Of a stretch of 43,577 nucleotides of DNA, positions 2,455 through 26,744 are shown piece by piece. The stretch lies in the NCBI GenBank assembly GCA_946415525.1, contig CAMKSZ010000002.1:1-43577 (forward strand). The letters are read 5' to 3'. The DNA is from an uncultured Prevotellaceae bacterium. Lineage in GTDB: Bacteria; Bacteroidota; Bacteroidia; Bacteroidales; Bacteroidaceae. A model generated the notes under the pieces. It was not told the DNA's origin. It saw only the letters and a program-made list of their open reading frames with translations, and ran no database searches. Positions within the stretch are counted from its first letter, which is position 1, and each line of letters begins with the position of its first letter. Position numbers and translations under genes: made by a program.

Positions 2455-2829
2455 ATGAATAAGGACACAGACAACTTGACTACAAGACCTGAGAACCCCT
2501 TCAAGGTGCCGGAAGGATATTTCGAAAGCCTCACCGAAAGGGTGATGGCCCGCATTCCGGCCAACGAGGTGCGGATGGTGCCCGAGAAGAAAAAGTCGCC
2601 CATGCGATGGAGGCCTTACGCTGCCGCCGCTGCTATCGTGGCTGTACTCTTCGGAGTGGGCGCCTATATCCACAAGGCTGAGGTGGAAGCCCCCATGCCT
2701 GCAGAGAAGAGCCTCGCCGTCAAGACCTCTGCCGTCAAGGCGCATGCCGACGACAGCGATTTCGAGGCCGTGGCCGACTATATCATGTGCGACGATTATG
2801 ACTTGTATGCTTACATATCAAATGAATGA
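2455..2829 (+). CDS. Small single-TM protein with NPFKVPEGYFESL N-terminus, resembling Bacteroidetes proteins encoded beside ECF sigma factors
   Basis: 124-aa ORF; N-terminal NPFKVPEGYFESLTERVM, then one TM segment (WRPYAAAAAIVAVLFGVGAYI). Confidence 0.7.
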   Translation: MNKDTDNLTTRPENPFKVPEGYFESLTERVMARIPANEVRMVPEKKKSPMRWRPYAAAAAIVAVLFGVGAYIHKAEVEAPMPAEKSLAVKTSAVKAHADDSDFEAVADYIMCDDYDLYAYISNE

Positions 2830-3283
2830 AATGAGGAATAATATTATAAAAAGGTGGAGCGTTTCCGCCTTGTTGGCCATCCTGATGACCGTCCCCATGG
2901 TGGCGCAGGACAGGCACGGGTTCAATCCCGAGAAATTCAAGGCCGACCTTGAGAAATTCATCACCGTGGAGGCTTGCCTCACACCAGCAGAGGCTGCCAA
3001 GTTCTTCCCGCTCTACGACGAGATGAATGCCAAGCAGCGGTCTCTCTTCGGCAAGATGCGCGAACTCAAGAGGATGAAGCCTGCCGACGAGGAGAGTTGC
3101 CGGAGGGTCATCTCCGACATCGACCGGCTGGAACTTGAAATCAAGCAGGTGCAGGCCAACTACCATTCGCGGTTCCTCACCGTCATCTCCGCCACCAAAC
3201 TCTTCGATGTCATCAGGGCAGAGGGGAAATTCCACAGGGAGGCGGTCAAGAACGCTGCCAAGAGGCCTCGTTTCAGGCCATAG
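2822..3283 (+). CDS. Secreted coiled protein (Spy/LTXXQ-like size and layout), hypothetical
   Basis: Signal peptide (SVSALLAILMTVPMVAQD) then a charged helical region. The start overlaps the stop of the previous ORF (ATGAATGA), suggesting translational coupling. An alternative start is 2831. Confidence 0.7.
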   Translation: MNEMRNNIIKRWSVSALLAILMTVPMVAQDRHGFNPEKFKADLEKFITVEACLTPAEAAKFFPLYDEMNAKQRSLFGKMRELKRMKPADEESCRRVISDIDRLELEIKQVQANYHSRFLTVISATKLFDVIRAEGKFHREAVKNAAKRPRFRP

Positions 3284-3319
3284 GCAAGACATCAAAACAC
3301 CCTATTGACATTATGGCAT

Positions 3320-23910: not shown

Positions 23911-23972
23911 TAAGGTCCTTAAAGTCCTTAAGGTCCTTAAAGTCCTTAAAGTCCTTAAAGACCTTAAAGTCT
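23911..23972. repeat. 9-bp tandem repeat (consensus TTAAAGTCC, about 7 imperfect copies)
   Basis: taaggtcc ttaaagtcc ttaaggtcc ttaaagtcc ttaaagtcc ttaaagacc ttaaagtct. Confidence 0.9.
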
Positions 23973-24016: not shown

Positions 24017-24066
24017 GTTTTATGCAAATTTCTTTCATTTTTCTTTCCTGTGTGCCCACACAGTAT

Positions 24067-24074
24067 TACCTTTG
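24067..24074 (+). promoter_or_regulatory. Candidate promoter -7 element TACCTTTG (with TTTC about 20 bp upstream)
   Basis: TACCTTTG at 24067-24074, TTTC near 24044-24047. Confidence 0.4.
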
Positions 24075-24254
24075 CATTGCATTTAGCAATAATAGGTTTA
24101 TATTTTAAGGTTATGGATATTTTTTTGATGACTGTCCGCTTCCTTGGTGTAGTGGCAGAAATGAAAGAGATGAAAGAAAGATTGTTGGGGTAATAACCCA
24201 ATGGATGATATGGTTTTTTAAGGGTATTTTTCATAAGAAAGATGGTTTTAGGTG

Positions 24255-24290
24255 ACTGCGGTGTCTTGCTCAAGACATCGCAGTTGTCTT
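24255..24290 (+). terminator. Stem-loop, candidate terminator or attenuator
   Basis: ACTGCGGTGTCTTG - CT - CAAGACATCGCAGT, 14-bp stem with one G.U pair, followed by TGTCTTTTGT. Confidence 0.65.
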
Positions 24291-24348: not shown

Positions 24349-24356
24349 TATCTTTG
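24349..24356 (+). promoter_or_regulatory. -7 element TATCTTTG for the 24396 gene
   Basis: TATCTTTG 40 bp upstream of the ATG; CTTG at 24325-24328 with a 20-bp spacer. Confidence 0.5.
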
Positions 24357-24395: not shown

Positions 24396-26744
24396 ATGAC
24401 AGAACAGCAAATGAAATCCATTTCCGTGGATGACCTTTTTTCCAGCGGAAAAATATCAAGAAAGACCTACAACACTTTGGTGCGGGCGAGGATGCGCACC
24501 GTCTTCGACCTGAAGAGATATGAGAGTGGCTTGCCAAGACTTTTCCGGTCGGGGGCGAATGGAATCAGGGAAATAAAACACTTGCTCCAGGAACTCGACG
24601 CTTCTGAGAGCATGCCTGAGATGACCTCCATGCTCTTTGCCATGGACGAGCCCGAACCTTCCAAGGGGGAGACGCTGCTGTCTTCTCTCACCGACGAGGA
24701 ACTGGCACTGCTCGATGTTGTCTATAAGCGCCAAGTGGCGTCGTTGTTGGAGTCGCATGAGCGGTTGGCGACAAAAATCGCACATGCGCTGTCGCCGCTG
24801 TCGGTGACGACTTTCATCAGGGATTTCCTCTACGAGGACGACGACCGTATTCTCATGCTCAACGATGTCAACGAGAACTCGATGTCGTTTGTCGCTTCGG
24901 TCAAGGAGGCTGTCAAAAGTGCGGTGGAGTCGCTGCATACCAGCGAGGTGCCTCCCGCTTTCAGGATTTTGTGCTATCAGGCGGAAGGCTTACTCGACGG
25001 CGACGACTTCTTGCTCGAATACTTCAAGGAGCACCAGAGGCTGCCTGTTTTGTATGTGATACAGAAGGCGATTGTCAATTCCAAAGACACGCCCATGGTG
25101 AAGACTTTCTTGCAAAGGTACGACATCTTTGGAGGACAAGTCGAGATTGACCAAGAGAAAGTGAAAAAGTCGTCTTTCACGATCACCACCTATTCCAATA
25201 TTGTCTTCGACGCGTTGTTCGCGCCTGGGGCACCGGTGGAAGTGTTCGGCGACTTCTTGGTGAAGTTCTTGGGCAATGATGTCAACTTGGGCTACCTCGT
25301 GGACATGGTGAAGGGGGATTTCGTCACTGAGAGTGCTGATGTGGTGGCGGAAATCATCCACGACGAGCATTTGATGATGCAGCCGATATGTGTCGTGGCG
25401 GTATTGGGCAAATTGCTGGTTCGGACCATGGCTTGTTTCGGAGGCTATTCCAAGAGTTTCGGGGTTGCGAAGGACGAAAAGTGGCAGCACGCTTTCTTGG
25501 TCGAACGGTCGATGGCCAATGCCTTTGACTTCCAGAAAGAGTTGTGGAGGTTCCGCGATTTTGTTGTCAAGACTTCTACCGATGAATATGTGCTCGACTT
25601 CAACGAGTATGTTTCCGGGGTGGTCGAGGACAACGAAAAAGCCAAGGCTTCCCTTCCTCAAATCGCTGACTGCCTGAAGGAAATGGTGGTCGAGGAGTTG
25701 GGCATTGCTCTCGACGAGGAGGGGAAGGTAATCGTGCCGAGAAAGCGCGACAAACCGCTGGCGGACAGGCTCTACGACATCCTCGAAAAGGAAAAGCAGC
25801 CTATGATGCTCGACCATCTCACCGAGTGCATCAATTCGGGCGATGGGAGAAGGTATGTCAGGGCATCCGTCTCTTTGGCGTTGAACAGGGACCCTCGTTT
25901 TCAAGGAAGTGGCAAAAAAGGATGCTATGCGCTCCGTGAATGGCAACTGCCATTTTTCGGCAGCAATGCAGATATCGTCTATCAGGTGCTCAAGGAGAGT
26001 GACAAACCCATGAAGGGGGAGGAAATCGTGGAAATACTGGCGGCTCACAGTTACAACAGTCAGTTCTCCAAAAACGACCTCTCTTCTGTCGTCTCCCTGG
26101 GGAAGAATTTGTTCAGGAAGTTGGGCGGTGGATACTATGGCCTGGTGGACAGGGAGTATTCCGGCGATTTCGTCTTCCCCACGAAGCGCACCTTTGAGTC
26201 GGAGTTGGAGGCTTTCGGCGCATTCATCGAGCAGCATCGCCGTCCGCTCACCCTGAATGGCGACGAAGAGGAGGTCAGGCTGCGGGCATGGTTCATGCGC
26301 AAGCGTAATGAATGGGAAGGCAACAACACCTGGAGCGATGAAAAAAGGCAGGCTTTCGCCGCCCTCGTCGCCCGCTACGAGGAGATTATCAAGGAGAGTC
26401 AGCCCCAGCCGCTGCCCATCACCCCGGATATTCCGGGCATTCCGGGCTCTCCGGGCTCTCCGGATATTCCGGATATTCCGGATATTCCGGATTCTCCGGA
26501 TAATCCGGGCATTCCGTCTTCTCCGGATTCTCCGTCTTCTCCCGGCATTCCGTCCGATTGGCTGGCCATGCTGGAGAGGGTGCGCGATTTCATCACCCAG
26601 AATGCTCGCGAACCTCTGGCGATGTTTACTGTTGAGGTGCAACTGGCCAATTGGCTGGCAGCACAAAAGCGCGCGATGCACGAGGAGGGGATTTCTCCCG
26701 AGCAGACGGCAGCCTTGCTGCAACTGCGCGACCTGCTTTGGTGA
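24396..26744 (+). CDS. Multidomain putative nucleic-acid-binding protein: N-terminal RpoA-CTD-like HhH, unknown helical middle, two HARE-HTH-like modules, helicase-associated-like modules split by a (PXX)15 linker
   Basis: ISRKTYNTLVRARMRTVFDLKRYESGLPRLFRSGANGIREIKHLLQEL resembles the RNAP alpha CTD. PLADRLYDILEKEKQPMMLDHLTECINS...RDPRFQGSGKKGCYALREW and IVYQVLKESDKPMKGEEIVEILAA...LGGGYYGLVDRE resemble HARE-HTH. Family calls are by eye. Confidence 0.75.
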   Translation: MTEQQMKSISVDDLFSSGKISRKTYNTLVRARMRTVFDLKRYESGLPRLFRSGANGIREIKHLLQELDASESMPEMTSMLFAMDEPEPSKGETLLSSLTDEELALLDVVYKRQVASLLESHERLATKIAHALSPLSVTTFIRDFLYEDDDRILMLNDVNENSMSFVASVKEAVKSAVESLHTSEVPPAFRILCYQAEGLLDGDDFLLEYFKEHQRLPVLYVIQKAIVNSKDTPMVKTFLQRYDIFGGQVEIDQEKVKKSSFTITTYSNIVFDALFAPGAPVEVFGDFLVKFLGNDVNLGYLVDMVKGDFVTESADVVAEIIHDEHLMMQPICVVAVLGKLLVRTMACFGGYSKSFGVAKDEKWQHAFLVERSMANAFDFQKELWRFRDFVVKTSTDEYVLDFNEYVSGVVEDNEKAKASLPQIADCLKEMVVEELGIALDEEGKVIVPRKRDKPLADRLYDILEKEKQPMMLDHLTECINSGDGRRYVRASVSLALNRDPRFQGSGKKGCYALREWQLPFFGSNADIVYQVLKESDKPMKGEEIVEILAAHSYNSQFSKNDLSSVVSLGKNLFRKLGGGYYGLVDREYSGDFVFPTKRTFESELEAFGAFIEQHRRPLTLNGDEEEVRLRAWFMRKRNEWEGNNTWSDEKRQAFAALVARYEEIIKESQPQPLPITPDIPGIPGSPGSPDIPDIPDIPDSPDNPGIPSSPDSPSSPGIPSDWLAMLERVRDFITQNAREPLAMFTVEVQLANWLAAQKRAMHEEGISPEQTAALLQLRDLLW
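26424..26558 (+). repeat. In-frame 9-bp coding minisatellite, 15 units encoding (P-X-X)15
   Basis: ccggatatt ccgggcatt ccgggctct ccgggctct ccggatatt x3 ccggattct ccggataat ccgggcatt ccgtcttct ccggattct ccgtcttct cccggcatt ccgtccgat. Confidence 0.95.

Follow-up and report, generated by a model that had tools for sequence, protein, structure and literature searches.

The gene studied here occupies positions 24396..26744 on the forward strand of the window, by which we mean the whole stretch of 43,577 nucleotides that was analysed. Its open frame, singled out in an earlier note, starts with ATG and encodes 782 amino acids followed by a stop codon. It is a real gene on which purifying selection acts, as seen from a family alignment of 15 members and a dN/dS of ~0.09 for the pair of relatives L014 and L018. 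The word TATCTTTG (24349..24356, forward strand), a putative Bacteroidetes -7 element, is found upstream of the gene in 6/6 sequences compared, including L014-L018, which agrees with the proposal that the gene has its own promoter. What had been taken for an elaborate leader, at 24048-24289, is instead an independent microprotein gene. This unit, on the same strand, consists of a palindrome CTGTGTGCCCACACAG (24048..24063), a putative -7 element TACCTTTG (24067..24074), an ORF for the 26-aa microprotein MDIFLMTVRFLGVVAEMKEMKERLLG (24113..24193) and a terminator-like hairpin between the two genes (24250..24289) with an 18-pair stem and a T run. L014 and L018 have a hairpin and T run at the same place with a different sequence. 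Fourteen microprotein ORFs were compared and pairwise differences per codon position amount to 0.20/0.08/0.52; since they differ mostly at third codon positions, this is a coding gene. The microprotein matched no Pfam family. The palindrome shows few changes among relatives, and the 3.4-Mb assembly contains its core TGTGTGNNCACACA at a single place. No regulon can be read from a unique core, and the palindrome was therefore rejected as a regulon box of the 782-aa protein. A 9-bp tandem array, TAAAGTCCT, lies at 23911-23971 between the gene for a penicillin-binding protein (PBP) and the microprotein.

Full or near-full relatives of the 782-aa protein are found in Prevotella, where 11/398 sampled species of the genus show a strong match (> 700 bits), none of them with an internal stop codon. 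A family-wide sample of 251 genomes with a minimum completeness of 80 % yielded the window itself as sole full match and partial matches in three other genomes, two of which, when read out, carry what we refer to below as classical hybrids. The own genome contains no second significant copy, its other matches being weak or due to the low-complexity linker, and searches of phage, viral and plasmid sequences yielded no homologue. On a tree of the HARE region the window branch is monophyletic with a support of 100/100. Two sets of matches were discarded: GBS_IgA_bnd_BAC (NCBIfam, 29 bits vs 1700) is a linker artefact, and the matches of a direct PDB sequence search mainly concern the low-complexity linker. 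Other places in the own genome likewise give matches to linker-like Pro/Ile/Asp repeats. L019 shows a TPR-like N-terminus joined in frame to the hybrid (2592-3300); its GC content changes from ~0.63 to 0.50 past the join, hence this contig was treated as likely chimeric.

The protein is no isolated oddity, since the whole chain falls in one co-linear family that combines alpha-CTD, sigma-4, HARE and HA domains. The profile search of the genus also gave weaker matches (G318, G415, G387, G331, G065, G166 and G215). In the best of these proteins two Pfam domains exceed their cut-offs, RNA_pol_A_CTD with at most 49.8 bits and Sigma70_r4 with at most 30.3 bits, and HARE-HTH and HA stay under cut-off. 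Reference profiles of real RpoA matched segments 1-75 (E 3e-17) and 195-300 (E 1.5e-5, the second alpha-CTD) of these relatives, and a reference profile of real sigma factors matched segment 290-400, their sigma-4 region, with 7e-11. Profile-profile comparison aligned the window family with the hybrid family co-linearly from end to end over 641 columns (99.8 %, E 8e-30). In a segment matrix of the window family against the hybrid profile A2 the matches lie on the diagonal, the HARE and HA repeats cross-match, and nearly every other off-diagonal pair scores ~0. Two weaker stray matches were found, between residues 196-300 and the HA2 segment (E 7e-4) and between residues 715-782 and A2 290-400 (E 1.6e-3). 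The order shared with the classical alpha/sigma-hybrid HARE-HTH proteins is alpha-CTD, (second alpha-CTD), sigma-4 region, middle, two HAREs and two HAs. As judged by these profiles, the window protein represents a derived lineage within this little-studied hybrid family of Bacteroidota. Aravind and Iyer are said to have noted HARE-HTH in 2012 in bacterial proteins that combine alpha and sigma features. Later papers cite that work for HARE-HTH.

The first alpha-CTD-like HhH domain comprises residues 18-68 (24447..24599), as supported by hhalign and by the identity of L014 and L018. The RpoA-CTD-like character proposed earlier is upheld by an hhalign match of residues 19-66 with a profile built on the C-termini of 11 real RpoA proteins (E 4e-4, at a probability of only 35 %), and the match with the alpha-CTD of the hybrid family has an E-value of 4.5e-7; a Pfam search of the 782-aa protein gave no direct RpoA-CTD match. 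The own genome, G000, whose assembly is 85 % complete, has no RNA_pol_A_CTD match at all, so rpoA is probably absent from the assembly. Residues 121-182 (24756..24941) form a probable second, diverged alpha-CTD-like unit, as suggested by position and by the helix pattern of the AF2 model; its profile match is weak (E 2e-3). Residues 203-275 (25002..25220), identified by hhalign, correspond to the module of sigma-70 region 4 but have lost its HTH signature. They are followed by a fast-evolving middle domain at residues 301-445 (25296..25730), which matches A2 395-515 (E 1.7e-5). The earlier statement that the middle ~350 aa match nothing has to be corrected accordingly, for profile comparison shows that this part is a homologue of the central region in the hybrid family.

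The C-terminal half had largely been read correctly. Two HARE-HTH modules, residues 446-518 (25731..25949) and 519-592 (25950..26171; Pfam HARE-HTH at 525-583), match separately with hhalign E-values of 5e-13 and 9e-11 and cross-match with 4e-6, and Pfam HARE-HTH (PF05066) scores 21.8 bits on the 782-aa protein with a cut-off of 25.9. Two helicase-associated-type modules are likewise indicated by Pfam HA (PF03457), which gives two stretches and 28.1 bits, slightly less than the cut-off of 28.4. HA module 1, residues 595-668 (26178..26399), matches A2's two HA-region segments (hhalign 3.6e-6 and 1.8e-6) and HA module 2 comprises residues 720-782 (26553..26741; Pfam HA at 721-775). Among eight aligned members, HARE-HTH was matched in 8/8 and HA in 7/8 (Pfam, E ≤ 1 for HA). 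The HA modules are separated by a P/I/S/D-rich linker (26400..26552) encoded by the proline minisatellite that had been described, for which TRF reports 9-bp units at 26420-26554. Members that have a linker show lengths of 37-210 aa and net charges of -6 to -56, that of the window protein being just -7. L009 and L029 stop after HARE2 and have neither linker nor HA modules.

The window branch differs from the classical hybrids in two losses, that of the HTH signature (TRERxRQ) in sigma-4 and that of the larger part of the 265 determinant in alpha-CTD. Residues 203-248 match A2 290-400 (E 5e-6) and leave the HTH half unaligned; in an ungapped reading of the HTH counterpart, LTRERCRQI of L031 corresponds with FTITTYSNI in the window protein. 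The real sigma profile gave no hhalign match with the sigma-4 equivalent of the window branch, and neither Pfam nor NCBIfam lists a sigma family for the window protein. In E. coli the 265 determinant of alpha-CTD, which serves UP-element binding, consists of R265, N268, C269, G296, K298, S299 and E302. It is kept 7/7 in L030 and 6/7 in L031, both classical relatives; the window protein has K N T G N G E at these positions. Compared with RpoA, the window protein thus shares the HhH core at residues 19-66 and retains N268, G296 and E302 but lacks the alpha-NTD, has R265 replaced by K, and C269, K298 and S299 by other residues. Judged from these alignments, the sigma-4 HTH has decayed and the DNA-contact set of alpha-CTD is mostly lost in the window branch. 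The loss of promoter-reading parts counts against a sigma-like role. The sigma-4 region of the classical relatives weakly matches MzaA (NF041931, E 7e-7, far below cut-off), the sigma-like factor of MZA, an anti-phage system; unlike MzaA, the window branch has no recognisable sigma-4, and MZA-type neighbours were not found.

Such losses would also be expected if the protein were a hybrid regulator in decay, a relic that retains little function, as would the sporadic occurrence among Prevotella species and a rate of evolution above that of the neighbouring genes. The pattern of substitution between L014 and L018 argues otherwise. Over the whole gene dN is 0.039, and the neighbours pyrB and PBP have values of 0.004-0.007, whereas it is 0.006 for each of alpha-CTD1, HARE1 and HARE2; the gene is therefore faster than its neighbours while its nucleic-acid or RNAP-type modules are tightly held. 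The segments lying between alpha-CTD1 and the HARE modules have a dN of 0.044-0.052, and that of the middle domain (residues 301-445) is highest or near-highest among segments. Residues 1-72 are identical at 72/72 positions. Given this purifying selection, with no internal stop in any strong match and a conserved promoter word, we consider a relic highly improbable.

The AF2 model of the protein, made with seven sequences, has a mean pLDDT of 73, with the HARE and HA regions mostly at 65-90 and low values for alpha-CTD1; the N-terminal region of the models is of low confidence (pLDDT 43-58). Foldseek retrieved RNAP delta chains 8x6g_E (probability 1.00, TM 0.65), 6zca_D (0.99) and 7f75_L (0.98), albeit with poor E-values (0.4-1.1). 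A separate model of residues 1-305 yielded nothing credible, its top row being a chance match with probability 0.11, and the viral Foldseek search gave no significant match. The top PDB match, UFL1/DDRGK1 (E 0.007), was not accepted as homologous given an rmsd of 14.5, and plausibly reflects tandem winged-helix similarity. The NCBIfam RNAP delta model scores 17.3 bits on the window protein, below its cut-off of 42, and E 0.0038 on HARE1 of orthologue L014. With delta (RpoE, Firmicutes) the protein has the HARE-type winged helix in common, and the acidic linker of most relatives is comparable to delta's acidic tail (PMC7749165). The window protein differs in its 782 aa, extra domains, tandem HARE, Bacteroidota host and weakly acidic linker. 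HARE-HTH domains are also fused to nucleases and have been proposed as readers of modified DNA (PMC10853773), hence the fold alone implies no RNAP docking.

The best reading of the domain content is that of a putative DNA/RNAP-binding factor with no enzymatic domain. More specifically, we propose, with a probability of roughly 0.45, that it is a chromosomal, standalone, RNAP-associated putative regulator derived from alpha-CTD/sigma-4/HARE/HA hybrids, which acts in a delta-like manner and not in promoter specificity. It would dock on RNA polymerase by means of its delta-like HARE pair and alpha-CTD1, would have ceased choosing promoters, and would modulate the engagement of RNAP with DNA as delta does with its acidic tail. 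The HA modules may contribute extra nucleic-acid contacts.

The classical relatives suggest a different role, that of a domesticated defence component which reads invader or modified DNA via HARE and HA and serves in immunity, as a sensor or regulator, independently of RNAP. Among the classical relatives that were fetched, six are located within or next to defence-type operons (GHKL/HerA-like; DndD/DndE-HerA). L086, L087, L088 and L093 share a recurrent operon of a HerA/mad8-like protein, a GHKL-type ATPase, a 662-aa protein without Pfam match and a classical hybrid, with PDC-S27, PDC-S19 or pAgo-like genes nearby in some of these loci. In L091 (6750-12798) and L095 (6688-12522) the hybrid is followed by DndD and then a DndE-HerA fusion. 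L089 has helicase-type defence-model matches in the next gene only, the one neighbour scanned in L092 is metabolic, and the genes scanned in L090 and L094 gave no defence-model matches. As this is a small sample picked by profile matches, the linkage with defence is an association and not a census. The fast-evolving middle segment also fits a defence role. The window branch itself shows a different context, its hybrids being solitary amid housekeeping or metabolic genes. An upstream block of PBP, pyrB/pyrI and one further gene precedes the hybrid in L014, L015, L016 and L018, a partial PBP gene does so in L017, and other window-family members adjoin YidC, FTHFS, BrkB or glycosidases. Because the block is syntenic in these four, a horizontal or mobile origin of the window locus is unsupported. 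With no PADLOC anti-phage family matching the 782-aa protein at E ≤ 1 and no phage or plasmid homologue found, we regard a present role in defence as rather doubtful.

Besides its solitary position and the variable linker between its HA modules, the window branch is set apart from the classical hybrids by the accompanying microprotein. In eight members the microprotein lies upstream of the hybrid and shares its strand (window, L014, L017, L018, L024, L009, L029 and L028/L084), tandems that are spread across the family tree and occur in several chromosomal surroundings. In the genus sample the unit is present in 9/11 hybrid-bearing against 5/387 hybrid-lacking genomes (Fisher p ~2e-13, a test that ignores relatedness). 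The hybrid-lacking cases (G260, G400, G417, G093 and G379, the fifth, which was read by eye) were confirmed just where fetched, in a search not exhaustive for divergent promoters. The microprotein may be a target or modulator of the hybrid protein. Tandem and co-occurrence would also agree with a local regulator that binds CTGTGTGCCCACACAG in the microprotein promoter and forms with it a self-contained control module. We deem this unlikely, as those five genomes have the unit without the hybrid, G072 and G086 carry it on a different contig from the hybrid, genomes that lack the hybrid show a similar box ahead of other short ORFs, and Fisher's test does not control for relatedness. More speculative still, and with little probability, the two genes would form a module of rumen Prevotella, a domesticated offshoot of a defence-operon regulator, in which the hybrid, having given up promoter specificity, would act with or on the 26-aa microprotein and thereby retune RNAP.

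We found no description of the derived Prevotella branch, its loss of DNA-contact residues or its microprotein tandem in a limited literature search. The 782-aa protein is a lead on an unusual transcription regulator and not a new kind of fold. Bacteroidota are not known to have a delta subunit. If the RNAP-associated reading is true, one chain unites the parts by which alpha, sigma and delta dock, which would provide a test case both for the recombination of RNAP-binding modules and for defence-operon regulators turning chromosomal, as well as a route to the role of the conserved microprotein adjoining such a regulator. A related box, TGTGTGCGCAAACAG-N3-TANNTTTGCA, was observed ahead of other short ORFs such as MNMTIVLFFAVLITSGFLFENTIEKK (G000:C29:5798-5825 = L146; L144). 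It occurs one to two times per genome in ~50/398 Prevotella genomes and may be an operator that microprotein genes have in common.
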